A DNA stretch of 64,000 nucleotides from Clostridiales bacterium. GTDB lineage: Bacteria; Bacillota; Clostridia; Lachnospirales; Lachnospiraceae. Position 1 is the stretch's first letter; each line of letters begins with the position of its first letter. The translations under genes were made by a program, and so were the position numbers. The stretch spans positions 1 to 64,000 of the forward strand of contig JAMPHY010000010.1 of NCBI GenBank assembly GCA_023663185.1. Reading direction: 5' to 3'. Below the pieces are notes generated by a model. That model saw only the letters and a program-made list of their open reading frames with translations. It did no database searches and was not told the origin of the DNA. Shown one piece after another: positions 42,459 to 59,386 of the stretch.

Positions 42459-43943
42459 ATGAAAATCACCGACAAACAAGCATATTTAGCACAAATTAAA
42501 GAGGTAATAGACAAAGGTCCTTATCATGACACTTGGGAGTCGCTTACCGATTTTATCATGCCGTCATGGTTTGAAAAAGCAAAATTCGGCATATTTATCC
42601 ATTGGGGGCTGTACAGCGTTCCCGCTTTCAACAATGAATGGTATTCCCGCAATATGTATATTCAGGGTACGCCTGAATTTGAACATCATGTAAAAACATA
42701 TGGGGCGCATAAGGACTTTGGCTACAAGGATTTTATCCCGATGTTTACCGCGGAAAAATTTGACGCGGATTTCTGGGCGGAGACTTTTGCGGGTGCAGGC
42801 GCAAAGTATGTGGTTCCGGTAGCCGAGCACCACGATGGCTTCCAGATGTATCAAAGTGATTTATCTATTTATAACGCCGCTAATATGGGACCGAAGCGCG
42901 ATATTATCGGTGAACTTAAAACGGCTTTTGAAAAAAGAAACCTTATCTTCTGCACCTCTACACACAGGGCGGAACATCTCTGGTTTATGGGCAACGGTAA
43001 GGATTTTGAAAGCGATATCAAAGAACCTCTTAAATGCGGCGATTTCTACTGGCCTTCCATTAAAGAGCAGCCCGACCAACAGGACCTTTTTGCGAAACCG
43101 TATCCTACGAAAGAATTTCTTGAGGATTGGGTATGCCGCACTTGTGAAATTATAGACCGCTACCAGCCTAAAATACTTTATTTCGACTGGTGGATTCAAC
43201 ATGAGGGATACAAGCCTGCGCTTCGTCAGATTGCCGCTTATTACTACAATAGAGGGCTTGAATGGGGATATAATACCGCCATCTGTTACAAGCATGACGC
43301 AATGGCGTTCGGCAGCGGAATCGTAGACGTCGAGCGCGGTAAGTTTGCCGACTCTAAACCTTATCATTGGCAGACGGATACCGCCATAGCGCGTAATTCA
43401 TGGTGTTACACAACCTCGCTGGATTATAAGAGCAGCTATGAACTAATCTGCTATCTGATCGATGTAGTCAGCAAAAATGGCAATCTGCTGCTCAATGTCG
43501 GACCTAAAGCGGACGGCACTTTTGCCGATAAAGACGCTGCCATTCTTCGCGATATCGGCAACTGGCTTTCAACAAACGGCGAGTGTATCTATAACTCTAA
43601 ACCGTGGCGTTATGCTTCCGAAGGTCCTACTATTGAAACCGAAGGGCAGTTCAGCGACGCAGCGGCTAACTCATATACAAGTAAGGACTTCCGCTTTACA
43701 GCGGGCAATGGCTGTATTTATGCAATATGCCTGAAATATCCGCAAGATGGCAGGGTAACTATTCATTCTCTCTCAAAGACGCATGACGCAAATAAGCCTA
43801 ATTTCCACGGCATAATCCGTAAAGTATGCGTTCTGGGATTTGATGAGCAGATTGACTTCCAGTGTGATGAAGATGGTCTTCATTTTGTTACTAAGAATGT
43901 AAAAAGCGATTTCCCTGTTGTAATTAAGGTTACTGTTGAATAG
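42459..43943 (+). CDS. GH29 alpha-L-fucosidase
   Basis: 494 residues. Family GH29 removes alpha-linked fucose. The substrate-binding start KFGIFIHWGLYSVPAF and VAEHHDGFQMY are present, and the nucleophile is Asp243 in KILYFDWW. No signal peptide, so it acts inside the cell on imported oligosaccharides. AAGGAG precedes the ATG. Fucose caps xyloglucan side chains in many plants, which fits the rest of the locus. It is divergent from the main locus and has its own promoter and terminator. Confidence 0.95.
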   Translation: MKITDKQAYLAQIKEVIDKGPYHDTWESLTDFIMPSWFEKAKFGIFIHWGLYSVPAFNNEWYSRNMYIQGTPEFEHHVKTYGAHKDFGYKDFIPMFTAEKFDADFWAETFAGAGAKYVVPVAEHHDGFQMYQSDLSIYNAANMGPKRDIIGELKTAFEKRNLIFCTSTHRAEHLWFMGNGKDFESDIKEPLKCGDFYWPSIKEQPDQQDLFAKPYPTKEFLEDWVCRTCEIIDRYQPKILYFDWWIQHEGYKPALRQIAAYYYNRGLEWGYNTAICYKHDAMAFGSGIVDVERGKFADSKPYHWQTDTAIARNSWCYTTSLDYKSSYELICYLIDVVSKNGNLLLNVGPKADGTFADKDAAILRDIGNWLSTNGECIYNSKPWRYASEGPTIETEGQFSDAAANSYTSKDFRFTAGNGCIYAICLKYPQDGRVTIHSLSKTHDANKPNFHGIIRKVCVLGFDEQIDFQCDEDGLHFVTKNVKSDFPVVIKVTVE

Positions 43944-44098: not shown

Positions 44099-45946
44099 TT
44101 AGTTACCGCTCACATAGTTAAATGTTACGGATAATGTCTCGATGTTTCCAAGCGTATCTGCGTCCAGAATACATGGAGAAGGTTCTAATCCGTTGTCCTC
44201 AAGAATGCGTATGTCGTCCGGAACCTGAGTTACCCATGCGTTATACAGATTAACGCGGGTAGCTATTCCGTCATCGCTGCAAGTATAAGGCTGCGCTATC
44301 GGTTCATACGGTTCTCCGTTTATCAATATCTCCTGAATATCTATATAATATCCGGGGAAAAGTGTCTCGCCGTTTGCAATCGCAATCGCACTGAATACAA
44401 CGCTGTTTGCATATCCGCCGTTTACTCCCGTAAAATCTAACGCTACCGTATAAGTTCCTTCTCCCGTAATTTCTAAATCTGTAGCCACAAGACCTTCCGT
44501 TGCGGATTCAGGGCTATACACGTCGCCTACGCTATACTGCACATTCCAGTCGCTGCTATTGAACATAATCCATGCTAACGCCGTATTTTCATCTACTCCT
44601 GCTCCTTCGGCGGCATTATCATAATCATTATCCATTTCTTTACGCGCCTGCGCTATAATATCGTCTTTTGACATTTCGGACTGAATTTCCAGACTATGTT
44701 TTGTATACAGCCTCGCCATGCCCATATCGATAATCGTCCCATCGTTACGGTTGTACAGGTTATTGCAGTCCCACAATACAGGACAGTAGCCGTATACGTC
44801 GCAGTTATTTAAGAAGTTTTGTATATAATCCTGCGTATTTTCCTTAAGCTCATTGTTTGTATTTTCAATCAAAACGCCGTACTCGCCAATCACTACTCCG
44901 TAACCCTGCTCAGTGAATTTCGTCATTTTTTCAAGAGTCTCATTCATGGTCTGGTACTCCTGCTTATTCCCCCATGTAGCGATACTGGTATTGATACAAT
45001 AACCGCTGGGATCATAATAATGCACAGAAACAAGCAGTTTGTCTTTCGCAGAATCCGTCGGCATTTTATATTTGTCATTACATGTATTAGCAATATCCGT
45101 GCCAAATCCTGCAATCAGCAGGAATCTTTGCTCGTTGTTTCCGCCTGACGCGCGGATTGTATCTACAAACGCCTGATTAATCTCATTCGTCACAGTATAG
45201 CATTCATCGTCAGAAAGCGTCCCCGAATCTTTAGCGATATCAGTATCGTTCAGCCTAAAGCCCAGTTCTTCATTTGCCGACTCAAAAATCACATAGTCCG
45301 AATAGTCCTTAAACCGTTCCGCAATCTGAGTCCACATAGATTTATAGAGCTCCATTGCCTGCGCTCTGGTTTCTTCGGTTGCTGAGCCGAACATTCCCCA
45401 CCATGAGCCGTCCCAATGGTCGTTAATAATCACATACATATCTGCATTACGCGCATATCCCACTATTTCTTCCACACGGTCAAGATATGCGCTATTTATG
45501 GTATAATCTCCGCTTTCAAAAGCCATCATATTAGTCCACGCCACAGGCAGACGCAGCGTATCAAAACCTGCCGCCTTCATACCGTCAAGCATTGCTTGTG
45601 TTGTCACAGGCTGTCCCCAGTATGTTTCATACTGCGTCGGCTCCGCATCGGTGCCTAAATCATTCCTTCCGTATGCTTCCATCGTATTCCCAAGATTTAT
45701 GCCGTTACCCATAAGTTCAGTAACTTCTATCGCCGTCAGTCCCACCCTGATTGCCCCATCATCAGCGTTATTTCTTGCCGCGCTTGTATCCGTTTCAGTG
45801 CCGTTTACCTCTGTATTTTCGCCTTCACCCACTTCAGTTACTATCACAGAAGTTGGTCCATCTTCCCCCGGCACACTTGTCGAACACGCTGTAAGCGATA
45901 ATGCCAATCCTAGCGTAAGTATAACGCTACCAACTGCTCTTCTCAT
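44099..45946 (-). CDS. Secreted GH5-family endo-glucanase lipoprotein with C-terminal binding-like module
   Basis: 615 residues. A lipoprotein signal ends in LSLTACST, so the enzyme is anchored outside the cell. Residues about 70-440 are a GH5 barrel: acid/base Glu226 in ESANEEL and nucleophile Glu355 in VVIGEYGV, with INDHWDGSWWG in the active-site wall. The GH5 subfamily is not determined; cellulase, xyloglucanase or mannanase activity are all possible. Residues 456-615 form a separate beta-rich module that contains TCSDDGIATRVNLYNAW and is clearly related to the modules of the surface protein at 51044-52906. It is the last gene after the permease and YesL-like genes. The context favours xyloglucan. 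Confidence 0.9.
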   Translation of the reverse strand: MRRAVGSVILTLGLALSLTACSTSVPGEDGPTSVIVTEVGEGENTEVNGTETDTSAARNNADDGAIRVGLTAIEVTELMGNGINLGNTMEAYGRNDLGTDAEPTQYETYWGQPVTTQAMLDGMKAAGFDTLRLPVAWTNMMAFESGDYTINSAYLDRVEEIVGYARNADMYVIINDHWDGSWWGMFGSATEETRAQAMELYKSMWTQIAERFKDYSDYVIFESANEELGFRLNDTDIAKDSGTLSDDECYTVTNEINQAFVDTIRASGGNNEQRFLLIAGFGTDIANTCNDKYKMPTDSAKDKLLVSVHYYDPSGYCINTSIATWGNKQEYQTMNETLEKMTKFTEQGYGVVIGEYGVLIENTNNELKENTQDYIQNFLNNCDVYGYCPVLWDCNNLYNRNDGTIIDMGMARLYTKHSLEIQSEMSKDDIIAQARKEMDNDYDNAAEGAGVDENTALAWIMFNSSDWNVQYSVGDVYSPESATEGLVATDLEITGEGTYTVALDFTGVNGGYANSVVFSAIAIANGETLFPGYYIDIQEILINGEPYEPIAQPYTCSDDGIATRVNLYNAWVTQVPDDIRILEDNGLEPSPCILDADTLGNIETLSVTFNYVSGN

Positions 45947-45972
45947 ATTTGATTACCATCTCCTCTCACAAC

Positions 45973-46635
45973 TTAACTATTCTCCCCGTTTTCTTCTTCC
46001 CGTTCCGTCTCCGCCGCATTGACCACCGCTCCCGGTTCTTTCTCAATCTGCCTGAAAAATCGAATCGCAAAAGCACTGACCGTATACATTACCAATGCCG
46101 GACCAAAAAACACTCCGAGAATCATCATTGTAGTTGTCCAGCAGAATGCCGCTATCTCAATCGCCACTATAAAAACAGCGAGTAAAGTCTGTAAAAAAAA
46201 GCGTGTTGATATATCATAAGAATTTTTCAATGTCTTAATAAGGCTGTTCTCATATCTTGCCATGAGCGGAAATGCGTACATTAGCCCCATAACAAATACA
46301 AATATAGCCACTATCCCCATTATAAGAAAGAGCGCGCTCTGCGTCGCCCCCCAGAACTGAAAGTCCAGATATACCGCATATGCCGCCAAAAGTGTCAATA
46401 TCCCCAGCAGACTTCCGCCCTTTAAATTTTCTTTAAACGCCTTAAAAAAAGAACGGACAATATAGCCCTCCGTATCTTCCGCCATTTTAAGCGATACAGA
46501 GCATACGGCAACAGTAGCCGCTCCCATAGTCACAATAGGGATACTGCAGATAATCCAGCAGAAATTCAACTGAACTATATCCCACAACCTGACTATGAAC
46601 CTGTAAAACGGACTGTCTACACTGAAAAATTTCAT
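45973..46635 (-). CDS. YesL-like DUF624 membrane protein
   Basis: 220 residues with about five transmembrane helices. DUF624/YesL proteins are found next to carbohydrate ABC transporters (LplB/LplC type) in Firmicutes; the function is unknown, perhaps assembly or signalling. It is 26 bases upstream of the GH5 gene. A terminator (46690-46724) separates it from the solute-binding protein gene, but some read-through is likely. Confidence 0.88.
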   Translation of the reverse strand: MKFFSVDSPFYRFIVRLWDIVQLNFCWIICSIPIVTMGAATVAVCSVSLKMAEDTEGYIVRSFFKAFKENLKGGSLLGILTLLAAYAVYLDFQFWGATQSALFLIMGIVAIFVFVMGLMYAFPLMARYENSLIKTLKNSYDISTRFFLQTLLAVFIVAIEIAAFCWTTTMMILGVFFGPALVMYTVSAFAIRFFRQIEKEPGAVVNAAETEREEENGENS

Positions 46636-46689
46636 ATAACAGACATGCTCCTTTCATAAGAAACGTGCGCCATCATGCGCACTTTTTAT

Positions 46690-46724
46690 AAAAGGACTGT
46701 CCGTTTCCGAACAGTCCCTTTTGT
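46690..46724 (-). terminator. Terminator after the solute-binding protein gene
   Basis: On the minus strand AAAGGGACTGT pairs with ACAGTCCTTTT and the sequence continues with TATAAAAAG. A second hairpin (GTGCGC/GCGCAC, 46665-46682) follows before the YesL-like gene. Together they may reduce, rather than stop, expression of the downstream genes relative to the abundant binding protein. Confidence 0.75.
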
Positions 46725-46731
46725 TAAAAAC

Positions 46732-48471
46732 TTATTTCATAGCCTCTATAGCTTCCGTTAGAAGCTGCGCTTCATTTATTGACCACTCGATACATTCATC
46801 ATAATAATACTCGTTTGCTTTGGTTTTCATTTCTTCTACAATCTGATCAAATTCTTCATCAGAACCAGCATACATTGCATTCCAAGAATAAGTAACGATA
46901 CACTCTTTGGTCTGATCCCATTTGGTCTGGAATTCATCGCCCTTCGGACTTGCCGTATACTCAGATGCAGGTTTTACCTGATATTTTCCGCTTTCCATAT
47001 ATTCTTCGGTATTATGGCAGCCTGTATATTCTCTCCAATCATTTTCGATATCATACTTTGACGCCGTAAGTTCGCTCTCCCAGAAATCACATCTGTATTT
47101 CTCACCATTAGAATCAGGATTGAGGGCGTCAAGCGTCCATGTAGTATTATTAATCTGCAACTGTCCATCATGGAATGTTCCGCTGTAGCCTGCTTCTTCC
47201 ATCGAGGTCTCAATATCCTGATGGCAGGACTTACCTAAAGGAGTAAAGTATGTCTTACCGTTTTCATCATAATCCCAGCATACGCCCTGAGGACCATATT
47301 CCATAGTAATTCTTCCTTCGGGAGTACACAGATAGTTGATAACTTCCATGCAAAGCTCCGGATATTCAGTTTTAGCGCCGATTGCCCAGATACGATTACC
47401 GCCTAAGGTACTCATACCATAAGCAATAGGTGAAGCCTCAGAAGGCGTCAGCGACAACATCATCTTGCCGTCCGCCATATGCTCTTCCGTATTATATAAT
47501 GAACGTCCTGCATAATCAAAGATAGAGAAGAACGTACCGCCTGCCGCAACTTTTTCCTGCACATAATCATAAGTACAGGTCATAGAGTCAGGATCTAACA
47601 AATCATTACGGTATAACTGATTGAAGAAATGCAGCGCTTCAATATAAGGACTGTTATCATCAAGACAGCCTATAAAGCTGTTGGTTGCCGGATCATAGAA
47701 ACCCATTTCAAACTCATCATAACCATAGTACGCAGTAACTGTAGCCTTCGGATACATAGCCATTGTTCCGTCCCAGTCAGGCCATGCAACAAGCGCATAT
47801 GTAGGCTTTCCGTTTTCATCTGTAGGACAGATTTCTTTCATCTGCTTAAGTAACTCAAGTAAATCATCATAATCCTTTACTTCCGGATAGCCCAGCTCTT
47901 TATACAAATCCCAGCGGATATCCCATGTATAGAAGAACGCCTCATGGTCCTGCATACTGGTTGCCACATTATGGCCGAAGCCATAGGTAGTGCCACCGGA
48001 AATGTTTGCATTATGAGCCATTGCATTCTGCATATTCTCATAAATATAAGGACCATATTCCTGAACCAGATTTTCATCATTCCAATCAAGCAGCAGCCCT
48101 GCATCAACTGCATTAAGATATGGATCTCCATCGGTTCCAAATACTACGATATCTCCTAAGTCTCCGCCTTCCATACGTGTCTGATACGTACCGTTTACAT
48201 CGGGCACGATATTCAGGATAACGTTGAACTTATCTAACAGGATATCCGCCGACCAACCTGACTGAACTCCTGAGTAGTTTGCTAACTGACTGAATACTGT
48301 CAAGGTAATAGGTTCGCCGTCTCCTCCGCCTGAGGTATTGCCACCCGACGTATCACCGCCTGATGTATTAGCTTCTGAACCACCGCCGGCTGAATTGCCA
48401 CAGCCCGCCAGCAGTCCTACTGTCATTACCGTACACATAAGCAATGCAGCGATTTTTTTCATCTTTTTCAT
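46732..48471 (-). CDS. Extracellular sugar-binding lipoprotein of an ABC transporter
   Basis: 579 residues. A lipoprotein signal ends in VGLLAGCGN, then a Gly/Ser/Thr-rich linker, then a family 1-type solute-binding protein of the large LplA-like group, whose length is typical. It should capture oligosaccharides outside the cell for the two permeases upstream. AAAGGAGAGAAAGAA precedes the ATG. The likely ligand is a xyloglucan oligosaccharide, inferred from the neighbouring enzymes. Confidence 0.92.
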   Translation of the reverse strand: MKKMKKIAALLMCTVMTVGLLAGCGNSAGGGSEANTSGGDTSGGNTSGGGDGEPITLTVFSQLANYSGVQSGWSADILLDKFNVILNIVPDVNGTYQTRMEGGDLGDIVVFGTDGDPYLNAVDAGLLLDWNDENLVQEYGPYIYENMQNAMAHNANISGGTTYGFGHNVATSMQDHEAFFYTWDIRWDLYKELGYPEVKDYDDLLELLKQMKEICPTDENGKPTYALVAWPDWDGTMAMYPKATVTAYYGYDEFEMGFYDPATNSFIGCLDDNSPYIEALHFFNQLYRNDLLDPDSMTCTYDYVQEKVAAGGTFFSIFDYAGRSLYNTEEHMADGKMMLSLTPSEASPIAYGMSTLGGNRIWAIGAKTEYPELCMEVINYLCTPEGRITMEYGPQGVCWDYDENGKTYFTPLGKSCHQDIETSMEEAGYSGTFHDGQLQINNTTWTLDALNPDSNGEKYRCDFWESELTASKYDIENDWREYTGCHNTEEYMESGKYQVKPASEYTASPKGDEFQTKWDQTKECIVTYSWNAMYAGSDEEFDQIVEEMKTKANEYYYDECIEWSINEAQLLTEAIEAMK

Positions 48472-48497
48472 TTCTTTCTCTCCTTTTCTTTTTATAA

Positions 48498-49463
48498 TTA
48501 TCCCTTGACTGCCCCTAGCATAATACCTTTCTCAAAGTATCTCTGCATGAAAGGATAAACCAACAGGATAGGTATAACCGTCACCATAGAAATGGTGTAT
48601 TTTAAAACTTTAGTACTCATAGCCGACTGCGCTACCGCCGTCGCGCCCGAACCGCTTGTACTCATAATCTGTGCCAGATTGGAGCTTGTATTCAAATATA
48701 TATACAATCTGTGCTGCAATGTGTAAAGCGAGGGAGCATTCTGCATCAATATCAGTGAATCCGTAAAAGAGTTCCAGTGCCCTACTGCACCGAAGATGGC
48801 TATTGTCGCCAGTATCGGTTTACTTAACGGCCATATAATTTTCCTGAATACCGTCATAAAGCCGGCGCCGTCTATCAGCGCGCTCTCTTCAAGTTCAGAA
48901 GGAATGGACTCAATGTATGTCTTTACCAGAATAATATTGTAAGGCGCCACAATTCCCGGAATAATATACGCCATGAAATTGTTTGTAAGCCCTAACATTG
49001 ACATATTTAAATACCACGGAATCGTTCCTGCATTAAAATACATGGTAATTACCAGAAAGCGATACCAGAATTTTCTATGCCACATTTCCTTCTTAGTAAC
49101 CAGATAGCCTACAAGCGCAGTTGCCGCTACCATCAGAGCGGTTCCGATTAGGGTTCTTGCAATCGAAACAATGAACGCATTTCCCAAATCCGATACATTC
49201 ATCATCGCTATGTAGTTGTGGATATTAATTCCCTTCGGAATCAATGACACCTGTCCCTTCCTAACCAAGTCGTTATCGGAAATCGTATTGATAAACAAGT
49301 AGTAAAAAGGGAAGATACAGCTTATAGTAAATATGGTATAAAAAGCATAATTCAAAATATTAAATGTAATACTTCCCGGTGTACGCTGCCACTTAGGTTT
49401 ATGCTTTTTCTCATATTCTCTTTCTGCTTTTTGGTCCAGTTTTTCCTGTTTTGTTTTCGCCAT
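48498..49463 (-). CDS. Carbohydrate ABC transporter permease (LplC/YtcP type)
   Basis: 321 residues with six transmembrane helices. The EAA motif reads EESALIDGAGFMTVFRKIIW and contacts the ATPase. The N-terminus is charged and Lys-rich. GGGGGTGG precedes the ATG, 12 bases after the upstream permease stop. No ATPase gene lies in the locus; a shared MsmX-type ATPase encoded elsewhere is usual for this type. Confidence 0.95.
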   Translation of the reverse strand: MAKTKQEKLDQKAEREYEKKHKPKWQRTPGSITFNILNYAFYTIFTISCIFPFYYLFINTISDNDLVRKGQVSLIPKGINIHNYIAMMNVSDLGNAFIVSIARTLIGTALMVAATALVGYLVTKKEMWHRKFWYRFLVITMYFNAGTIPWYLNMSMLGLTNNFMAYIIPGIVAPYNIILVKTYIESIPSELEESALIDGAGFMTVFRKIIWPLSKPILATIAIFGAVGHWNSFTDSLILMQNAPSLYTLQHRLYIYLNTSSNLAQIMSTSGSGATAVAQSAMSTKVLKYTISMVTVIPILLVYPFMQRYFEKGIMLGAVKG

Positions 49464-49475
49464 TATTCCACCCCC

Positions 49476-50936
49476 TTACACAATGCTCTCGCCACGGATA
49501 GCTTTGGAAACGCCATTTGCCGCAAACAAAAGAATAACGCTGACAATGGATTTAACCATGCCGATAACCGTGGACAACGGAATATTACCATTGGTAATAC
49601 CCAGCGTATATACATAATAATCAAGTACCTGAATGGTATCCATATTTACTTTATTAGCAAATACCATATACTGATCCATACCATTGCTTAAGATATTGGC
49701 AATGGACATCAGCAGCATAACACAGTAAGTAGGAATAAGACCGGGCAGCGTCACATGCCACATCTTAGCGAAGCGTCCTGCGCCGTCCACTGTCGCCGCT
49801 TCATATAACTGTTGGTCGATACCGGAGATACCTGCTATGTAAATAATTGCACTCCAGCCAATACCTTTCCACATACCCCATGCCAGCATTTTAATCCAGA
49901 TATGAGACGCACTCATCAAGTAGTTAGTGCCTGTCTGTCCTTCCGCAAGCATTCCAAGCTGCGCCGCCGCGGTATTGACAAAACCATCGGTAGAAAAGAT
50001 AGCAAATGCAATAGCATATACTAAAACCCAGCTTATAAAGTTAGGAACCGTGGTAAACGTCTGCACAAAACGGCGGAACCTCATATTCTTAATCTCATTA
50101 AGGAATATTGCAAACGCCATTGCACACCAGCTTGTAGCAATGCCAAGACCGCTCATGGCAAGGGTATTACGAAGCACGCGGACTACGTCGGCTTTAGTTG
50201 CCTGACTCTGAAATAATGATGTAAACCATTTAAAGCCTACGAAATTATCCATAGACAGAGTTCCGCCCGCTGAATAATTAAAGAAAGCATATCTCCAGCC
50301 CCAAAGAGGGAGATAACTGAATACGAAACATAACGCTGCAAATGGAAGGAACATAAGGAACAACTTAAATTTGGATTCCATTTCATACTTACTGTCCTTT
50401 TCCACTTTAGGCAGCAATATAATATTCGCTATAGTTGAAACAAGTAAAACTATAGTCAAAATCAGGTATACGATATAACCTGCTGGGAACATCGGACCAA
50501 CTTTATCGTAATTGGAAGTTCCCTGTATCTGTACATAAGAAACATAAATTAAAATAAGTCCCAGAACATCTGCTGCTCCTCCTGCTAAGGAAAAGATATT
50601 CCCCAGCTTTTTAAATTTCAAATTGCCGAGGGACATACAGCCGCCTGCGGCTGCCGCAGCTATTCCCAGAAGCATTATCATTGAAGCTACATAAAGCAAT
50701 ATAATGTTTCCCTGCTCTATCCAGCCTCTATTAAACGCACGCCCCATCTCTGCTGTCAGACTGTTATAGAAAAGTCCCGACGTAAATAATGACAGGTTTT
50801 TATTAATCATCGTACAAATTCTGGAAGGCGTCGCAGCCGGGAAAAAAATAAGCGCAGTCGCAAGAAGCGTTGCAACACGCTGTATATAATAAACCTTATC
50901 GGTAATTATTTCGTTTTTAGTCTTATTTTCTTTCAT
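49476..50936 (-). CDS. Carbohydrate ABC transporter permease (LplB type) with N-terminal membrane extension
   Basis: 486 residues from the ATG at 50936, which has GGAGGTGTGT upstream (an in-frame ATG four codons earlier overlaps that site). The C-terminal about 290 residues are a normal LplB-type permease with EAA motif YEAATVDGAGRFAKMWHVTL. The N-terminal about 190 residues are extra and contain about four further transmembrane helices, ending at KVEKDSKYEMESKFK. Standard LplB proteins are about 300 residues. The added domain is of unknown role, perhaps contact with the surface proteins. It is the first gene of the transporter operon. Confidence 0.92.
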   Translation of the reverse strand: MKENKTKNEIITDKVYYIQRVATLLATALIFFPAATPSRICTMINKNLSLFTSGLFYNSLTAEMGRAFNRGWIEQGNIILLYVASMIMLLGIAAAAAGGCMSLGNLKFKKLGNIFSLAGGAADVLGLILIYVSYVQIQGTSNYDKVGPMFPAGYIVYLILTIVLLVSTIANIILLPKVEKDSKYEMESKFKLFLMFLPFAALCFVFSYLPLWGWRYAFFNYSAGGTLSMDNFVGFKWFTSLFQSQATKADVVRVLRNTLAMSGLGIATSWCAMAFAIFLNEIKNMRFRRFVQTFTTVPNFISWVLVYAIAFAIFSTDGFVNTAAAQLGMLAEGQTGTNYLMSASHIWIKMLAWGMWKGIGWSAIIYIAGISGIDQQLYEAATVDGAGRFAKMWHVTLPGLIPTYCVMLLMSIANILSNGMDQYMVFANKVNMDTIQVLDYYVYTLGITNGNIPLSTVIGMVKSIVSVILLFAANGVSKAIRGESIV

Positions 50937-50966
50937 ACACACCTCCATAGGCTAGGAGTAATAGCC

Positions 50967-51000
50967 GGACAGATATGTTCTTTATAGAATATATCTGTCC
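50967..51000 (-). terminator. Hairpin after the modular surface protein gene
   Basis: GGACAGATAT pairs perfectly with ATATCTGTCC over a 14-base loop. On the minus strand it follows the modular-protein stop by about 45 bases, without a U-run. It could cap the 3' end of that mRNA or limit read-through into the transporter operon. Confidence 0.6.
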
Positions 51001-51043
51001 GTACCATATTATTTATCTACCACTTTTACATTTACTTTTACAA

Positions 51044-52906
51044 TCAGTCTTTTTTCTTCTTGCTCATTACAACTGCTACAGCAGCGATTATTGCAACTAC
51101 AACTACTACAATCACTACTATAACTACAGGAGACATAGAAGAAGACTCTTCTACCGGTGCAGGTTCTTCTGCTGCTGCAGGCTCTTCAACCGGAGCCTCT
51201 GCTGCAGGTTCTTCTGCCGTCGCTGCTGCCGCTTCATTATCATATGCGAAGCCGGATACTGTAAATGTAATCTCCATATCCTTAGGCGGTACTGCATAGT
51301 AACCAATTGTCGCCACATCGTCATTCCAGATATTTTGAATCAGCATATTTACATAATTCACTGAATCCGGACTTAAGATAGGGCTGCATGATACATCTCT
51401 TCCATCAATAGTAAGTTTAATATCAGATATTGTAATCTCTCCGGTATTAGGAATATCGGTAGAGATGAAAATCAGGTTAAAGTAATCCTGAGAGTCAAAA
51501 TCTCCTTCAAGATTCATTCCGTTTGCAGAGATGGTATATGTACCATTACCTGCAATAACTGCGTCTGTCAGAGTACCGTCCTTGACAATAGCATCGCTGC
51601 CTTCCCAACCGGTAATCTGATTGAAGTATTCCGTCTCACGTCCATATGACTCATCATCAAAGGCATTACGGAAAGAATATGTCGGCGTCTGAAGACCGAT
51701 ATAAGCGTTATATGTGCCGTTTAAATCAACAGCGTCAGGAGCTGCAGCTTCGCCTGCTGATGCAAGTTCGCCTACGCCTGCTACTGTGAAAGTTACTTCC
51801 ATAGATTCTACAAGGAAACCGCTTCCTGATGAAGCATTAACATAATCGCTTGAGAATAAGCATGCTGTTGCGTCTGCAAGATTTCCTTCTGCTACACGGT
51901 GGTCAAGGTGATTATCATCACCAGCCGTAGCAGTCTCGTCCGGGCTGTTCCACTCATTGTAAAGATTTACACGGGTAGTTACGCCGCCGCCATCTGCTGA
52001 ACATGTATAACTCGGTCCCTGAAGTTCTACTTCTTCGCCGTTAATCTTAATACTGTCTACGGTAATAGTATAAGCCGTTCCTAAAAGAAGCTCGCCGTTC
52101 TCAACCTCAAGGGCGTTGAACTGTACAAGGCTCTGTCCTTCACTAGCTGTCATTGATACAGTATAAGTACCGTCTCCGGTAATCTCTGCATCTACATACT
52201 CAGCTTCATACTCTGACCAGTCTTCATTGTTGATGCTAAGGTGGGCAACTGCCGGACCTTCTGCTGTCGGTGTTGCTGAATCCGCTGCTGCGCCAGCCTG
52301 TGTGCCAAATCCTGATACGGTAAATGCAACCTCTAATGATTCTACAAGGAAGCCGCTTCCTGATGAAGCATTAACATAATCGCTTGAGAACAGGCATGCT
52401 GTTGCATCTTCAAGATTTCCTTCTGCTACACGCTGGTCTGCGTGCTTGTCATCACCCTCGCCCGCCGTAGCTGTTGCGTCAGGGCTGTTCCATTCATTGT
52501 AGATGTTTGTACGGGTAGTTACGCCGCCGCCATCTGCTGAACATGTAAAGCTCGGTCCCTGAAGTTCTACTTCTTCACCGTTAATCTTAATACTGTCTAC
52601 TGTAAGAACGCAGCCTGTACCAAGATAAGACTCGCCGTTTACAACTTCAAGCGCATTGAACTGTGCAAGGCTCTGTCCTTCTTTAGCTTCCATACCGACA
52701 GTGTAAGAACCGTCTCCGGTAATCTTGACATTTGTCCATTCAGCGTCAAACTCTCCCCATTCCTCATTATTAATGTTGAGGTATGCCGTGCCGTCTTCAA
52801 GTCCTGACGCGTCTTGAGCTGCGAGCACTGACAAAGGTGAAAGCGCCATCATGCAGGCAAACATGCCGGCAGAGGCAAGTGCTAACCATTTCTTAAACCT
52901 TTTCAT
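51044..52906 (-). CDS. Surface-anchored protein with three carbohydrate-binding-like modules
   Basis: 620 residues from the ATG at 52906 (AGGAGGAAAAGTA upstream; the open frame extends eight codons further). A signal peptide (cleavage near VLAA-QD, residue 30) is followed by modules at about 38-200, 218-385 and 395-555, a Glu/Pro/Ala-rich spacer, one transmembrane helix (VVIVVIVVVVVAIIAAVAV) and a KKKKD tail. Modules 1 and 2 are nearly identical and share TCSADGGGVTTR and NLYNEW/NIYNEW-like segments with the GH5 C-terminal module. No catalytic domain is seen. It probably binds polysaccharide at the cell surface beside the transporter. The family is unknown to me and the binding role is inferred. 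Confidence 0.8.
   Translation of the reverse strand: MKRFKKWLALASAGMFACMMALSPLSVLAAQDASGLEDGTAYLNINNEEWGEFDAEWTNVKITGDGSYTVGMEAKEGQSLAQFNALEVVNGESYLGTGCVLTVDSIKINGEEVELQGPSFTCSADGGGVTTRTNIYNEWNSPDATATAGEGDDKHADQRVAEGNLEDATACLFSSDYVNASSGSGFLVESLEVAFTVSGFGTQAGAAADSATPTAEGPAVAHLSINNEDWSEYEAEYVDAEITGDGTYTVSMTASEGQSLVQFNALEVENGELLLGTAYTITVDSIKINGEEVELQGPSYTCSADGGGVTTRVNLYNEWNSPDETATAGDDNHLDHRVAEGNLADATACLFSSDYVNASSGSGFLVESMEVTFTVAGVGELASAGEAAAPDAVDLNGTYNAYIGLQTPTYSFRNAFDDESYGRETEYFNQITGWEGSDAIVKDGTLTDAVIAGNGTYTISANGMNLEGDFDSQDYFNLIFISTDIPNTGEITISDIKLTIDGRDVSCSPILSPDSVNYVNMLIQNIWNDDVATIGYYAVPPKDMEITFTVSGFAYDNEAAAATAEEPAAEAPVEEPAAAEEPAPVEESSSMSPVVIVVIVVVVVAIIAAVAVVMSKKKKD
51751..52795 (-). repeat. 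Tandem duplication inside the surface protein gene
   Basis: The coding regions of module 1 (about 52306-52795) and module 2 (about 51751-52255) are nearly identical in long stretches at DNA level, for example the shared GCCGCCGCCATCTGCTGAAC stretch at about 51981 and 52521 on the plus strand. This indicates a recent duplication. Boundaries are approximate. Confidence 0.8.
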
Positions 52907-53050
52907 TACTTTTCCTCCTATTTCGTCCACTTAGGACAGTTTATTGTTACTTTATTTAAACCTCCCACACCAATAAAGTGCGCTAAACACAATTTAGATA
53001 TGGGAAATTTGAATACTTTAATTAAAAATGTGATTATAACTCTAAAAATA

Positions 53051-53065
53051 TTATTGTAAAATTTA
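53051..53065. repeat. 15-bp inverted repeat, left (possible element end)
   Basis: TTATTGTAAAATTTA, the exact reverse complement of 54611-54625. The 395-base gap from 52907 to 53301 contains the modular-protein leader, this repeat and the DR2-like pair; no gene was seen in it. Confidence 0.6.
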
Positions 53066-53301: not shown

Positions 53302-54495
53302 CTATGCAATCAGTCGTTCCATCTCCGCTTTTGCAGCAGTAAACGATGCGTGCGCATAATAATCCAGCGTCATTGAAATATTTGAATGTCCCATGATATA
53401 TTGTAAGGCTTTCGGATTCATTCCCGCATTGGCAAGATTAGTACAGAATGTATGGCGCAATGTATGAGGCGTCATAACTTTTGGCAGCGCAGTCTCATGA
53501 GACTTGTTATACTTTTCTGCAAGCCGCTTAAACATATTATCATAATTATTTGCAGTCTTTGGATATCCGTCCCGATTAATGAATAGGAAATTACTCCAAC
53601 CGTCAATACTAATATTTTTTGCTCCTTTGCGTTTTTCTAACACATGCCTTAGCGCAGCGTACACCTTTTCACTCATGGGAATCTGTCTAATGCCGCTTTG
53701 AGTTTTAGGTTTCTCGATATAATATCCGGTTTCTGAGCTCCGCAAAAGCTGATGGTCTATCTTAATAATCTTATTTTCAAAATCAAGATTAGCCTCAGTC
53801 AGTCCGCAAAGTTCAGATATACGTAGTCCCGTACCCAGTAAAATAATAAATTCATCATAATATTTTTTATAAATTCCGTCCTCGCGGATAAAATTAAGAA
53901 GTGATTTCTCTTGTTCTAACGTAAGCGGAACTTTAGGCTCCGTATCATCTTCTATCACTGTATTTAACTGAAACTCAAAAGGATTTTTCCTTATGCAGTC
54001 GTCCTGCATTGCCGCGTAAAATGCCGCTTTCAAAGAGCGCTTATCATTACTTATTGTCTTATAAGATATGCCCTTTTGCTTCATGCGCAGTATCCACTCT
54101 TTTACATCGGACTGTTTTACATTTTCTATTGGATAAGAACCCAGTTTATCTTTTTCTAACAGCTTCATTAACCGCTTGCGTCCCTGTGTAGTATTATATC
54201 TGACATTTCCGCGATGTTTTGTCTGTTTGGCATAAAGCTCGCAAACTGTCATTTTTTTACCCTTTATATCTATTCCGTCGTCCAAATCTTTACGGATTTT
54301 GCTTTCCTTTTCACGCAAAGACATATCTTCATGTTTTCCTACCGGAGTCTTGTCAGTAGGAACTAATTTCCAAGCATATGCAAACTTCACCTTGCCTAAA
54401 GAGTCGGTATATTTATAGGCATATCGCCCATCTTTTCGCTGACTCTCACCTAAATGTAAAATACGATTTTTATTATCGCGTCTTTTCTCTGCCAT
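53302..54495 (-). CDS. int: Tn916/Tn1545-type tyrosine recombinase (integrase)
   Basis: 397 residues, slightly shorter than Tn916 Int (405). The N-terminal arm-binding domain (RILHLGESQRKDGRYAYKY), core-binding domain and catalytic domain are all present. Catalytic residues: Arg near 224 in GLRISEL, HTLRH near 343-347, His in GHSNIS and Tyr near 379 in LDYYAH. Sequence similarity to Tn916 Int is obvious along the whole length (recalled, not computed). AAGGAG precedes the ATG. There is no xis gene next to it, nor any ICE genes. It separates the surface protein from the GH31/GH74 genes and appears intact. Confidence 0.95.
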   Translation of the reverse strand: MAEKRRDNKNRILHLGESQRKDGRYAYKYTDSLGKVKFAYAWKLVPTDKTPVGKHEDMSLREKESKIRKDLDDGIDIKGKKMTVCELYAKQTKHRGNVRYNTTQGRKRLMKLLEKDKLGSYPIENVKQSDVKEWILRMKQKGISYKTISNDKRSLKAAFYAAMQDDCIRKNPFEFQLNTVIEDDTEPKVPLTLEQEKSLLNFIREDGIYKKYYDEFIILLGTGLRISELCGLTEANLDFENKIIKIDHQLLRSSETGYYIEKPKTQSGIRQIPMSEKVYAALRHVLEKRKGAKNISIDGWSNFLFINRDGYPKTANNYDNMFKRLAEKYNKSHETALPKVMTPHTLRHTFCTNLANAGMNPKALQYIMGHSNISMTLDYYAHASFTAAKAEMERLIA

Positions 54496-54753: not shown

Positions 54754-56823
54754 TTATTCATAAATTTTATAATCTTTCCCGTCTCTAATCATAACCGGAA
54801 TAATATCAAGCGGCGCCGGCACCGTTATCCATTGTCCGCCGTCGTATGATTTCTTAGTATATGCGTCAGTCCATGTACAGCCCTTCGGCAGATAAACCGT
54901 GCGTTCTTTAACGCCTTCTTCCATCACGGGAGATACTAACAAATCCGGTCCGAACATATAGGAATCTTCTACTTCCCAACACGCTGCGTCTTCCGGGAAG
55001 TCAAAGAACAGCGGACGCATTACCGGCGCGCCCTTTTCACTCGCAGCTTTCATACATTCCCTTATATATGGACGAAGTCTTTCGCGGATAAATAAATATT
55101 TTGACAAAATCTTATAATTTTCCTCGCCAAAGCTCCACACCTCATTATCCTGTCCGCTCGTAAGCTGGCGCACGCCGTTAATGTATTCCTGCTCCCTTTC
55201 ATACCACGGAGAACGCTCTCCATGCATACGGAACACCGGGCAGAAAGCTCCCCATGCGAACCAGCGTACCAGAAGTTCCCTGAAATGTTCATCTTCAATG
55301 TTTCCGCCTAAGAATCCGCCGATATCGGAAGTCCACCACGGGATTCCCGCCATTCCCATATTCAGTCCCGCCTGAAGCTGTTCGCGCATGGAGCGGAAAG
55401 ACGAATAGATGTCGCCGGACCATGTAAGCACGCCGTACTTCTGGCTGCCTGCCCATGCACAGCGCACCAGGCTCATTATTTCAGTCTCGCCTTCCGCGCG
55501 CAAACCATCATAGAAGCCTTTGGCATAACCTACAGGATAGCGGTTGGTGCATTGCAGCGCGATGCCTTCATAATAACGGTAGTTGTCAAAATCATAAGGA
55601 CCATATTCAGGTTCCGCCTCGTCCAGCCAGAAACATCTGATTCCCTTTTTATAATAATTTTCCCTGCACTTCTCCCAGACAAATTTTTGCGCGTCAGGGT
55701 TAGTTGCGTCATAAAATATGGTATTCCCCATCCATGTCATATGGTTAGAATTGCCTCTATCCGCCGTAACCAGATAGCCTTTCTTCGCCATCTCGCCAAA
55801 GTTCTCACTCTGCTCGTCAATGGTCGGCCATACGGATACCACGGTCTCAATTCCCATATCCTTTAATTCCTTCACCATCGCTTCGGGTTCCGGCCAGTCT
55901 CTTGGTTCAAACTTAAAATCTCCCTGCCTTGTCCAATGGAAAAAGTCAACTACTATGGCATCCAGTGGAAGCCCTCTTTTTTTATGCTCTCTCGCTACTA
56001 CAAGAAGTTCTTCCTGATTTCTATAACGCAGCTTACATTGCCAATAACCCATGCCGTATTCCGGCATCATCGGGCTTCTTCCCGCCGCCATCGAATATTG
56101 CTCTTCAATTTCCGCCGGCGTATCTCCCGCCGTAATGAAATAATCAAGTTTTTTGGTACTATTTGCGGACCACTCTGTTTTATTAGCGCCGAAGATTGCC
56201 GTGCCAATCGCCGGATTATTCCATAAAAATCCATATCCGCGGCTTGAGACCATAAAAGGTACGCTCGCCTGACTGTTTCTGTGAGCAAGCTCTAAGATGG
56301 CGCCTTTTTTATTCAGATTTTTCTCCTGATACTGTCCCATACCGAAAATCTTCTCGTCGTCAAACGCTTCAAAACGCGCCGTCAAAGAATAATCCGTAGA
56401 ACCCTGAATAGCTTTTAACTCTCTGCCGTCAACCCTAAGCGGCACGCAGTAACGGTTGATACGGTTACGGTTGCGCCAGTATTCTTCCGTCAGTAGTTCG
56501 CCTTTTTGATTATAGAAGCTTATCCAGCCCTCATGGGATACTTTCGCTGTAATTTTACCGTTCGTAAGCTGCGCTTGTACTCCTGTCTGGTGATATTTAG
56601 CGTACTCCTCAGACTTATACCACGGATCCGTGACGTCTATTTCCTCAAAAGTAATCTGCGCATCTGTCTTAGGCACTTCCTCTGTCAACGCCCAATCATG
56701 CGCATCCATCTGCGCCTCGTAGCTCATTCGTACTCTTAAAGAATTTACGCCCCACGGCTCTATCCACACCTGAGACCTTCCATCTTTTATAAGCAGCCTG
56801 TTCCCTTCTTTTTCTAAGTACAT
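54754..56823 (-). CDS. GH31 glycosidase, probable alpha-xylosidase
   Basis: 689 residues, no signal peptide, so cytoplasmic. An N-terminal beta-sandwich precedes a barrel with AIVVDFFHWTRQGDFKF, nucleophile Asp401 in CFWLDEAEPEY, and WTSDIGGF after it. The WLDEAEPE form is typical of the XylS-like branch of GH31. It would remove alpha-1,6-xylose from xyloglucan oligosaccharides. It is 77 bases downstream of the GH74 gene, with a palindromic operator-like site between them. Confidence 0.9.
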   Translation of the reverse strand: MYLEKEGNRLLIKDGRSQVWIEPWGVNSLRVRMSYEAQMDAHDWALTEEVPKTDAQITFEEIDVTDPWYKSEEYAKYHQTGVQAQLTNGKITAKVSHEGWISFYNQKGELLTEEYWRNRNRINRYCVPLRVDGRELKAIQGSTDYSLTARFEAFDDEKIFGMGQYQEKNLNKKGAILELAHRNSQASVPFMVSSRGYGFLWNNPAIGTAIFGANKTEWSANSTKKLDYFITAGDTPAEIEEQYSMAAGRSPMMPEYGMGYWQCKLRYRNQEELLVVAREHKKRGLPLDAIVVDFFHWTRQGDFKFEPRDWPEPEAMVKELKDMGIETVVSVWPTIDEQSENFGEMAKKGYLVTADRGNSNHMTWMGNTIFYDATNPDAQKFVWEKCRENYYKKGIRCFWLDEAEPEYGPYDFDNYRYYEGIALQCTNRYPVGYAKGFYDGLRAEGETEIMSLVRCAWAGSQKYGVLTWSGDIYSSFRSMREQLQAGLNMGMAGIPWWTSDIGGFLGGNIEDEHFRELLVRWFAWGAFCPVFRMHGERSPWYEREQEYINGVRQLTSGQDNEVWSFGEENYKILSKYLFIRERLRPYIRECMKAASEKGAPVMRPLFFDFPEDAACWEVEDSYMFGPDLLVSPVMEEGVKERTVYLPKGCTWTDAYTKKSYDGGQWITVPAPLDIIPVMIRDGKDYKIYE

Positions 56824-56900: not shown

Positions 56901-59225
56901 TTATAACTTTTGGGGCGTTCCGTACAGCACTCCGCGGCTCCCCGTGCCGAGATAGAACCTTCCGTATACCCGACTGTCGCCTTCTATGCTGTTTATTTCA
57001 CCATACATCTGATTATCATCATTAAGCCTTACAAAAGTCTTAGCGTCGTCTACGGAACGATAGAAACCGTAAACGCCGTCTATATTAGCAGCCGTATAAA
57101 TCGCCTTGTTTTCCTTAAAATAATCTCCGTCCGGTCTGATTATCCCAAGCCCCAGCCGATAAAAAATGTCGCCGTCTGCGCTGAGTTTTGCAGCATATAT
57201 TTCATCTTCCTTCATATCATAATGCAGCTTCCAAAGCCCGTGTTCCCCAAGCGCCATATAGAAAATTCCCTGTCTGCCGCATTCGCCGCGTACCTCCGTC
57301 TTATTTGCACAGTCTATAAGAGAAAAATCAACCACTGGAAAATCCTCAGCATTTACGAGACATTTCGGTTTAATCTCCCGCTGCCTGAAAGTCATGCCGC
57401 CGTCCGTACTTAAATAAATTTGAGACTGTTCTCCAAATCCATAGAAAATATTGCTCTCCATACGGTCTGCAAACACTTTCATACCGCCCTGAGTCTTTAT
57501 CTTTCCCGCAGTATCATAGACTTTTGCCAAAGCAAAACTTTCTCCGCTGTCCCTGCTTACAACTACCGTATCTATAGGCAGCTTAGTGTGCTGTGCAACC
57601 GACCAGACAATATTCATACAGTCCGGCGAAACTGCCACCCAGCCGCTATTTACATTGGGCAGCTCTATCTGTTGCAGCGCTTTATCCAGCTTATCGCTAA
57701 GTCCAAACGGCATAGGCAAGCGTCTGAAAGTACGGCACTGGTCTTTAGACAATATCAGTCCGCCTTTGGTCTTACCTGTCCAGTTACCTCTGGGCGTTAC
57801 TACTACAAATTCCGGTCTTATATCGGAGTAATCTGCATTTATACATGTGATATAACGGTTTCCGTCCTTATCGTCAAATGAATTATCACATGCTTCATCG
57901 AGCGAACGGAAGGCAAAACCGCCTAAATCCCCCAATATATCAATAAGCTTCACATCACCCGACGGCAGACTGTACAAGTTCAAATGCACGGTTTCCTCCA
58001 GCCCGTCGCACCAGTCGCTGAAAACAACCTCGTCCCCTGTCAGATTATTAGTCCTAAACACTCCCGTCCCTGTATTAAACCATGCTTCATTTTCATTAAA
58101 CGGATTGATTTTTAAATCAGTAAGCCAATGAATAATTGAATGCCCGCCATTATAGCACGGCTTCATATACGACGTTCTAAAATCCATTCTGCCTCTATCT
58201 AAATCGTGCAGAATTTCTTGCCAGTTCTTTCCATAGTCAAAAGAGCGGTATATGCTGTCGCCGTCCTTTTTACAGATAGTCGAGCAGATAAGCAGCCCCT
58301 CTCTTGACGCCGCCGCATTAATACCGCTAAATCCGTATTCTAATAAACCGTCAGGATAAGGCGTAATCTCTTCCCCTTCTCCAAACCTGCCGTCTGAAAG
58401 AATTGGATATCGTACAACCCTTCCGCCTATTACGCTTCCGCCGTCGCAGCTATAACCGTTCTCCAACACATAAGCGTTTCTCCCCATAACAGAAAACGTA
58501 ACATAAAGATACTTATCGTCTAACGAGTAGCGCTGCGCTACAAGTCCGGCAAGCTTAACAGCGTCTATTTCATCAGACTGCGGCTGCCACAGCTTACTAA
58601 AGCTTGCACCGCCGTCGTAAGAAACATACAGGCTGTGTCCGCGCAATCTTTCACTACGCTTCGTCGTCACTCCTGCGCAGCCTGCAAACAATATCCTGCC
58701 ATCTTTACTCTGTCCTACAAACGTCATATATTCTTCCGGAAACGCACTGTTCTTCTTCCAGTTAGCGCCCCTGTCTAAGCTAATCCACAAACCTTCCTGC
58801 TGGCTTGCAAATATCAGCCTGTCGCTGTCAGCCTTATCTACAATCAGGCGAAATCCCGTGCCCCTTCCGTTTAAGTTGCCATGAATAAGTATAGGTATCT
58901 TATGATAGGCAAAATGCTCTCCGTAATCGTCTGAAACAGCAATCACTCCCGCGCCCGCTTTGTTGACGCCGCACGCAATATAAAGCCTGTTAGGATTAGC
59001 ATCATCAAGAGCGACGGCAATCGGAAAGGTCTCGCTTAAGTCTTTCATCGTCACATGGTCTGTTAAGCTTATCCAACTCTTTGTACCATAGTCAAATCTA
59101 TATGTACCGCCGATATCAGTTCTAGTATAGAGAATGCCTTCTTTTTTTTCATGAAAAATGAAACCTGTCACATAACCGCCGCCGGGAATCGGAAGGTTCC
59201 GGTACTCATACTTCTCGTTTTTCAT
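56901..59225 (-). CDS. GH74-like xyloglucanase without signal peptide
   Basis: 774 residues. GH74 enzymes are two seven-bladed propellers that cleave xyloglucan backbones. The entry segment YTRTDIGGTYRFD holds the first catalytic Asp and GDLGGFAFRS the second; repeated propeller motifs such as YVSYDGGASF and YLSTDGGMTF are spread along the chain. GH74 enzymes are mostly secreted, but this one begins MKNEKYEYRNLPIPGGGYV with no signal peptide, so it probably works on imported oligosaccharides. It starts divergently from the YicI-like alpha-xylosidase gene. Confidence 0.9.
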   Translation of the reverse strand: MKNEKYEYRNLPIPGGGYVTGFIFHEKKEGILYTRTDIGGTYRFDYGTKSWISLTDHVTMKDLSETFPIAVALDDANPNRLYIACGVNKAGAGVIAVSDDYGEHFAYHKIPILIHGNLNGRGTGFRLIVDKADSDRLIFASQQEGLWISLDRGANWKKNSAFPEEYMTFVGQSKDGRILFAGCAGVTTKRSERLRGHSLYVSYDGGASFSKLWQPQSDEIDAVKLAGLVAQRYSLDDKYLYVTFSVMGRNAYVLENGYSCDGGSVIGGRVVRYPILSDGRFGEGEEITPYPDGLLEYGFSGINAAASREGLLICSTICKKDGDSIYRSFDYGKNWQEILHDLDRGRMDFRTSYMKPCYNGGHSIIHWLTDLKINPFNENEAWFNTGTGVFRTNNLTGDEVVFSDWCDGLEETVHLNLYSLPSGDVKLIDILGDLGGFAFRSLDEACDNSFDDKDGNRYITCINADYSDIRPEFVVVTPRGNWTGKTKGGLILSKDQCRTFRRLPMPFGLSDKLDKALQQIELPNVNSGWVAVSPDCMNIVWSVAQHTKLPIDTVVVSRDSGESFALAKVYDTAGKIKTQGGMKVFADRMESNIFYGFGEQSQIYLSTDGGMTFRQREIKPKCLVNAEDFPVVDFSLIDCANKTEVRGECGRQGIFYMALGEHGLWKLHYDMKEDEIYAAKLSADGDIFYRLGLGIIRPDGDYFKENKAIYTAANIDGVYGFYRSVDDAKTFVRLNDDNQMYGEINSIEGDSRVYGRFYLGTGSRGVLYGTPQKL

Positions 59226-59276: not shown

Positions 59277-59386
59277 CCGCACTCAACCACTGTGAAGCAT
59301 AACATCAAATTAGTATTTCATAATTACACATTAATATGATAATATATAATTATAAAATTTTAAACATAATTTTAAGGAGGAAAACT

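Follow-up and report, generated by a model that had tools for sequence, protein, structure and literature searches.

A module shared by a GH5 endo-glucanase and a putative glycan-capture protein encoded beside an ABC importer in a Lachnospiraceae xyloglucan locus

How a Gram-positive bacterium may capture a polysaccharide at its surface is the question raised by a gene run in a gut Clostridiales bacterium (Lachnospiraceae; GCA_023663185.1, contig JAMPHY010000010.1, positions 1-64,000 of the forward strand, these 64,000 nt being referred to below as the window). In this run, a glycoside hydrolase family 5 (GH5) endo-glucanase and a non-catalytic surface protein, named SLP here, carry a common module, which occurs in SLP as two A-type units and a divergent B-type unit. 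In our view, SLP probably captures polysaccharide at the cell surface as part of a Gram-positive locus for xyloglucan uptake, working like the surface glycan-binding proteins (SGBPs) of Bacteroides, and its A modules together with that of GH5 would constitute an unnumbered carbohydrate-binding module (CBM) family.

The GH5 enzyme (615 aa; 44099..45946, reverse strand; Pfam PF00150 at 1.8e-48, PDB match 3zmr at 8.3e-53) has a lipobox-like LTAC and a catalytic domain at residues ~100-396, and ends with an A module at its free C-terminus (residues 456-615; 44102..44581, reverse strand), recognized by BLASTP against SLP and by profile. SLP (620 aa; 51044..52906, reverse strand) contains, on the same strand, two A modules (52307..52792, profile match of 1.8e-49 in its own genome, and 51776..52252, 9.3e-52) and a membrane-proximal B module (51242..51712, B profile). 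The first-pass annotation had described the GH5 C-terminal region and these three regions as a common unit of about 160 residues. This description held for units 1 and 2, GH5 456-615 matching unit 2 with 70.5 bits (E 5e-19, 38% identity) and unit 1 with 58.5 bits (E 6e-15, 33% identity), and these two units sharing 76% identity. Unit 3, whose BLASTP alignment covers just 36 residues (21.9 bits, E 0.014), had to be reclassified as a divergent relative. The relationship is backed by a comparison of profiles, in which hhalign aligned 50 A-type units to 23 B-type units with a probability of 97.9% and an E of 4e-13. Likewise, part of the motifs proposed as common is kept in all units, namely a strand resembling ITGxGTYTV, one resembling INGE, and the closing strand, whereas TCSxDGxxxxTR and NLYNxW are missing from unit 3, in which QNIWN takes the place of the latter. 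In the own genome, the profile search found the module in GH5 and SLP only; the pair is also carried by a cultured relative, Eubacterium ruminantium FB3002 (L068).

The conservation of the A module is illustrated by 50 diverse units, in which Y499, F518, E527, G544, T555, S557, R564, N566, N569, and R580 never vary (numbered as in GH5), with aromatic residues at positions 467, 568, and 571 in 48/50, 48/50, and 50/50 units, respectively, the last being Trp in 46. Such a conserved polar and aromatic set would fit a ligand-binding site and could be partly structural. In a tree of 50 units, all 18 GH5-borne ones were placed on one side of a single branch (support 100/97); hence, the fusion to GH5 looks old and stable. 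Besides, an iterated profile run over the fetched loci returned 125 distinct module open reading frames (ORFs), of which 53 also encode a GH5 domain, that is, a discrete module fused to a carbohydrate-active enzyme as is expected of a CBM; the 72 ORFs devoid of a GH5 domain, which encode non-catalytic surface proteins, include the contig-edge fragments L070_2_700 and L060_7419.

Neither module could be attributed to a known family. Scans of the full GH5 and SLP proteins gave no Pfam or NCBIfam family over the curated cut-off for A or B. At the level of single units, the best Pfam E was 0.0016 for the 50 A units (two members, no family being hit in more than five) and 1e-4 for the 23 B units (one unit). 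Profile searches of PDB, which compare sequences and not folds, found no fit either for A (best 7.3e-5 with an iota-carbonic anhydrase, a value summed over repeats, the top single domain having an i-E of 4) or for B (best 0.26). Several candidates were rejected, namely TAXi_C in L155 (34 bits for a cut-off of 23.9, 34 of 161 positions) and HTHP in L203 (25.8 bits for a cut-off of 25), both repeat sums with no single significant stretch and judged to be chance; Glucodextran_B, Calycin_like, and similar Pfam matches, which were weak and confined to short stretches or to one to five members; and an NCBIfam adenosylhomocysteinase match (8.9e-4) that falls far below its cut-off and extends over 34 residues, the model having 432 positions. 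Among known CBMs, CBM65 (CBM65_1, PF18259) was discarded with hhalign probabilities of 0.5% for A and 0.1% for B. CBM72 is the nearest family by description, being also C-terminal on glycoside hydrolases: the consulted part of PMC4725902 describes a C-terminal module of rumen glycoside hydrolases with a 134-residue binding region and key Trp and Tyr residues. However, its published aromatic spacing F-W-Y-Y-W-F, compared as a spacing and not as a sequence profile, fitted 0 of 200 module sequences. The module is therefore set apart from the families that have a Pfam or NCBIfam model or a PDB sequence, CBM families with neither (e.g., CBM37) lying outside this comparison. The earlier remark that the module was not recognized as a numbered CBM family is thus supported as far as this comparison reaches, and Pfam and NCBIfam scans returned no confident match of all modules to a non-carbohydrate family. 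Taken at sequence level, the module appears to be real, conserved, and unlisted, and is most likely a CBM. In Ra1831 of Ruminococcus albus 8, a region of once unknown function binds glycans and is called both a novel CBM and a distant CBM65 in the available part of PMC4954948. New gut carbohydrate-binding domains are also reported in PMC10076258, in whose main text the terms GH5, xyloglucan, and Lachnospira do not occur; the consulted passages of PMC13003330 offer nothing on the subject.

The architecture of SLP is that of a surface protein. Translation was taken to start at an ATG following AGGAGG, a GTG start leading to 628 aa being a possible alternative. From this start, a signal peptide (residues ~1-30, with a hydrophobic stretch at 10-28; 52817..52906) precedes the A, A, and B modules, which are followed by an acidic Glu/Pro/Ala-rich spacer (51134..51238), a single hydrophobic segment (residues ~592-612, hydropathy 3.76; 51071..51133), and KKKKD, all on the reverse strand; the signals and anchors of SLP and GH5 were read by eye and by hydropathy, with no signal-peptide program. 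Pfam and NCBIfam scans of the full protein found no enzyme domain. Signal peptide, spacer, and C-terminal membrane anchor in a 620-residue protein devoid of an enzyme domain are what had been described at first, and hydropathy and both family scans agree with it. SLP is hence predicted to be non-catalytic and anchored outside the cell, where it would be displayed at the surface. Its relatives are composed of B alone, AB, AA, AAB, AAAB, or B behind an unrecognized outer part, B being the usual membrane-proximal unit. A universal membrane-proximal role for B was rejected, as no B match was found in eleven mostly Eubacterium-like proteins of the L044-L116 set (L056, L062, L063, L065, L066, L068, L070, L071, L072, L074, and L079) nor in L156.

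SLP is followed, on the reverse strand, by the genes of ABC permease B (PermB, 49476..50948; PF00528 at residues 277-482), ABC permease C (PermC, 48498..49463; PF00528), a substrate-binding lipoprotein (46732..48471, assigned from its lipobox and its position, with no Pfam match at 0.001), a DUF624 membrane protein (45973..46635; PF04854 at 1.4e-17), which we take to be YesL-like, and GH5, with gaps of 95, 12, 26, 96, and 26 bases. Owing to this order, SLP and GH5 are the first and last genes of one co-directed run, which may be co-transcribed. A promoter-like TTTACA-16-TATAAT lies upstream of SLP (53033..53060, reverse strand), matching the consensus at 11 of 12 positions; such sites occur in near-chance number (30 found vs. 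24.2 in shuffles).

The position of SLP immediately upstream of the transporter operon, already noticed in the first-pass annotation, is conserved. The 46 SLP-like ORFs of at least 480 aa in loci L044-L116, minus three GH5 proteins (L044_16453, L045_7151, and L062_57), define 43 SLP loci, near-copies (e.g., L051-L053) being counted separately. A PermB relative was found directly downstream of SLP in 42/42 loci with room for it, i.e., leaving out L077 (279 bases downstream) and including L064, where the two frames, read from stop to stop, share 37 bases. Encoding with an uptake system, a feature of SGBPs, is thus found in all of these loci, the exception, L155, lying outside the set. PermB is distinguished by ~180 extra N-terminal residues, as judged from length comparison, its first 190 residues holding three hydrophobic segments. 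Among its relatives (>400 bits), 42 of 47 frames measure 485-589 aa and five are shorter (227-472 aa), perhaps cut by the locus ends; three other permeases of the SLP loci have 314, 315, and 360 aa. With the N-terminal 190 residues as query, this extended permease was matched in 32 of 397 Lachnospiraceae genomes, 22 of which are among the 26 genomes that contain the module.

The remainder of the window points to xyloglucan as the substrate. The second-best PDB match of GH5 is 3zmr, which we take to be the BoGH5A xyloglucanase, and its matches also include a chain named GH5-4 (6xsu). Four further genes, in none of which a signal peptide was seen, encode a GH31 enzyme nearest to the alpha-xylosidase MeXyl31 (54754..56823, reverse strand; 5zn6 at 9.4e-258), a GH74-like xyloglucanase (56901..59225, reverse strand; 6p2m at 1.1e-72, 6mgj at 7.8e-61, and 2cn2 at 1.3e-57), a YicI-like GH31 enzyme (59336..61735, forward strand; 8t7z at 1.8e-278), YicI being presumably an alpha-xylosidase, and a GH29 alpha-L-fucosidase (42459..43943, forward strand; PF01120 at 6.9e-98). 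These similarities make a convincing case for a xyloglucan locus. A Tn916-type integrase gene (53302-54495 of the window) lies between SLP and the GH31 and GH74 genes, and is found at the same place in L044 and L046.

Under the capture-protein reading, the two outer A modules of SLP and the A module of GH5 would retain at the membrane either xyloglucan or a related beta-1,4-glucan, the divergent B module being placed next to the membrane in a putative division of labor. The held polymer would be cut by GH5, the resulting oligosaccharides would be collected by the binding lipoprotein and imported through the two permeases, and cytoplasmic GH74, GH31, and GH29 would dismantle them. Two other readings of the module deny it any glycan. 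Stalks often consist of repeated beta-rich units that precede a membrane anchor, and the number of units varies among the SLP relatives (B, AB, AA, AAB, AAAB), as might be expected of a structural stalk or Ig-like spacer raising other parts above the cell wall. We hold this to be very improbable: in GH5 the module forms the very end of the protein, on the far side from the lipid anchor, which argues that it is not a stalk, and invariant polar and aromatic residues speak against a spacer as well. An assembly domain, through which the A modules of GH5 and SLP would contact one another or the binding lipoprotein and so keep enzyme and importer together, without holding any glycan, would agree with the presence of a common module on the proteins encoded at the two ends of the run, as well as with the 22 genomes that contain both module and extended permease (26 and 32 of 397, with ~2 expected by chance from a hand count). 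Nevertheless, two genomes that are 95-96% complete (G445 and G164) carry their sole A match on a GH5 protein, the extended permease being present, so that the module is not dependent on an SLP with A modules, and four GH5-module loci (L085, L086, L092, and L108) show no SLP in the fetched stretch. Assembly is therefore an unlikely function.

It is also conceivable, if still rather doubtful, that the module binds another glycan, such as mixed-linkage glucan, glucomannan, or a host or cell-wall glycan, the association with xyloglucan being incidental. Indeed, GH5_4 enzymes are broad according to the portion of PMC4954948 at hand, and 13 of the 43 SLP loci lack all five enzyme types in the fetched stretch, several of these stretches being short. 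Conversely, relatives (>150 bits) of the GH5, GH29, GH31, or GH74 of the window, i.e., of xyloglucan-type genes, were found in 30/43 loci, a GH31 relative in 19/43. Together with those 13 loci, several observations weigh against the capture-protein reading of SLP or against its strict specificity for xyloglucan. Elsewhere, 10 of 14 small single-A-protein loci, mostly from Oscillospirales, have a B protein gene directly before the A gene (L059, L069, L073, L083, L084, L087, L093, L096, L099, and L100); where read, each of these separate small proteins has a signal peptide of its own and a tail that is PxTG-like or hydrophobic, and some stand in surface-protein arrays. None of nine Pfam-scanned neighbors of the pair in L087, the one such locus scanned for glycoside hydrolases, is a glycoside hydrolase, which would also suit another ligand, and the array neighbors examined (three in L059 and two in L084) matched no Pfam family. 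Hence, either the modules have further roles at the cell surface, or they would capture glycans where no enzyme is encoded nearby. The importer, for its part, also occurs without SLP. Thirty extended-permease loci were read (L157-L186), three of the 33 matches having no locus, and 27 remained after removal of L158, L180, and L183, which lack room. A module protein was encoded directly upstream in 15 of them, counting L164, whose SLP (L016) lies ~720 bases upstream of the permease by coordinate arithmetic, and none in the other 12, for which reason the extended permease was abandoned as a strict SLP marker; L105 is one further importer without SLP. SLP would thus be accessory to the importer. 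It is also patchy within the genus, being held by 2 of 59 other same-genus genomes (G007 and G011) when the whole SLP was used as query. At L155 (6718-9999), six A-like units, of which the last is weak, are found in an anchored surface protein of 1094 aa encoded away from the importer, no relative of the transporter genes of the window being present in 16 kb. Finally, the 96 bases that separate the binding-lipoprotein gene from the DUF624 gene contain a terminator-like hairpin (46682-46665), and GH5 may therefore not be co-transcribed with SLP throughout.

The comparison with the SGBP-A and SGBP-B proteins of Bacteroides beta-glucan and xyloglucan loci is one of working mode, not of family membership. 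Like them, SLP is a non-catalytic, membrane-anchored protein with several binding-like domains, encoded in an uptake locus together with a surface endo-glucanase. It differs from them by a C-terminal transmembrane anchor where SGBPs have a lipid one, and by an ABC importer in place of SusC/D; no SGBP appeared among the PDB profile matches of the A module. Some of these SGBP features are set out in the consulted part of PMC10318527. The initial proposal of a Gram-positive SGBP counterpart is accordingly retained for a non-catalytic, anchored protein in synteny with an ABC importer in a xyloglucan locus, and proved too simple for a module family that extends to Oscillospirales and to L155.

Other systems offer partial parallels. 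To our knowledge, Sas20, a protein of the Ruminococcus bromii amylosome, does not belong to an ABC operon. It lacks catalytic activity, binds starch at the cell surface, and has two binding domains (PMC9112005, in part); it resembles SLP as a non-catalytic surface protein of a Gram-positive gut bacterium, differing in its starch ligand and in amylosome assembly. In Ruminiclostridium cellulolyticum, xyloglucan is cut outside the cell, imported by a specific ABC transporter, and degraded by cytoplasmic exo-enzymes (PMC4780118, abstract). The window follows the same plan, with the difference that cellulosomes do the extracellular work in that species, for which the abstract names no SGBP-like protein. 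The structure of a xyloglucan substrate-binding protein (SBP) of a Gram-positive importer is presented in a preprint (PMC12710961, in part).

A closer parallel was found in the own genome, where contig C11 (298144-300075; L132 8145-10076) encodes a 643-aa lipoprotein in which an N-terminal domain is combined with three CBM65_1 modules (4.8e-70), with no enzyme domain in Pfam, its gene lying between a permease gene and a gene for an SBP-like binding lipoprotein. The same gene order was observed in another genome (L121); in L118 (two CBM65 copies) and L122 (three) the gene also precedes the SBP-like gene, the upstream stretch read being too short to show a permease. This protein resembles SLP in being anchored, in having three module copies and no enzyme domain, and in its place beside importer genes; it differs by its lipid anchor and by CBM65 modules, with the hhalign value of 0.5% against the A module given above. 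Two unrelated families, CBM65 and the putative CBM family of the A module, are thus placed in the same kind of position. Tentatively, and with more doubt than confidence, one may imagine a new class of importer-linked glycan-capture proteins in Clostridia, in which the usual membrane-proximal B module would couple to the extended-permease ABC importer and exchangeable outer modules (A, CBM65 in a lineage parallel to it, or others) would catch the polysaccharide. In that case, genuine counterparts of SGBPs, in physical association with ABC uptake, would exist in Gram-positive loci.

According to the published view, as expressed in the accessible parts of two studies, Gram-positive loci have no SGBP and enzyme-borne CBMs do that job: Sheridan et al. 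describe no close Sus homologs in Roseburia-group loci and propose that polysaccharides are bound by the CBMs of enzymes (PMC5320581), and the Blautia producta study describes Gram-positive polysaccharide utilization loci (gpPULs) without SGBP (PMC10318527). Among the matches listed in the open-access literature, in titles and abstract openings, neither this module nor an SGBP-like protein in an ABC operon is described. A conserved non-catalytic capture protein beside the importer would correct this view, suggest a new CBM family, and allow the competition of gut Lachnospiraceae for xyloglucan to be tested directly.

The module is unevenly distributed. The profile search detected it in 26 of 397 Lachnospiraceae genomes and in 11 of 391 genomes sampled from across the class, the own genome being included in both counts and G859 being the only other strong case in the latter. 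In a search of genome contigs, the best 80 of 171 matches were kept and fell at 73 loci. With the whole SLP as query, G046 gave a GH5-type match in the same-genus search, and the further matches among 98 genomes, in G023 and G085, concerned the C-terminal tail of SLP alone. Three SLP relatives (L082 4610-6961, L190 4482-6752, and L194 4512-6413) have outer parts of 300-500 residues with no A module or Pfam match, possibly further unlisted binding modules. In two others (L206 3551-5908 and L203 6804-8873), about three strongly diverged outer units precede a well-kept B unit. Lastly, a distant A-like module was observed in GH5 proteins of ~1150 aa in L149 (3393-6860) and L150 (3062-6598), the former also carrying Big_2 and a sub-threshold FIVAR match.

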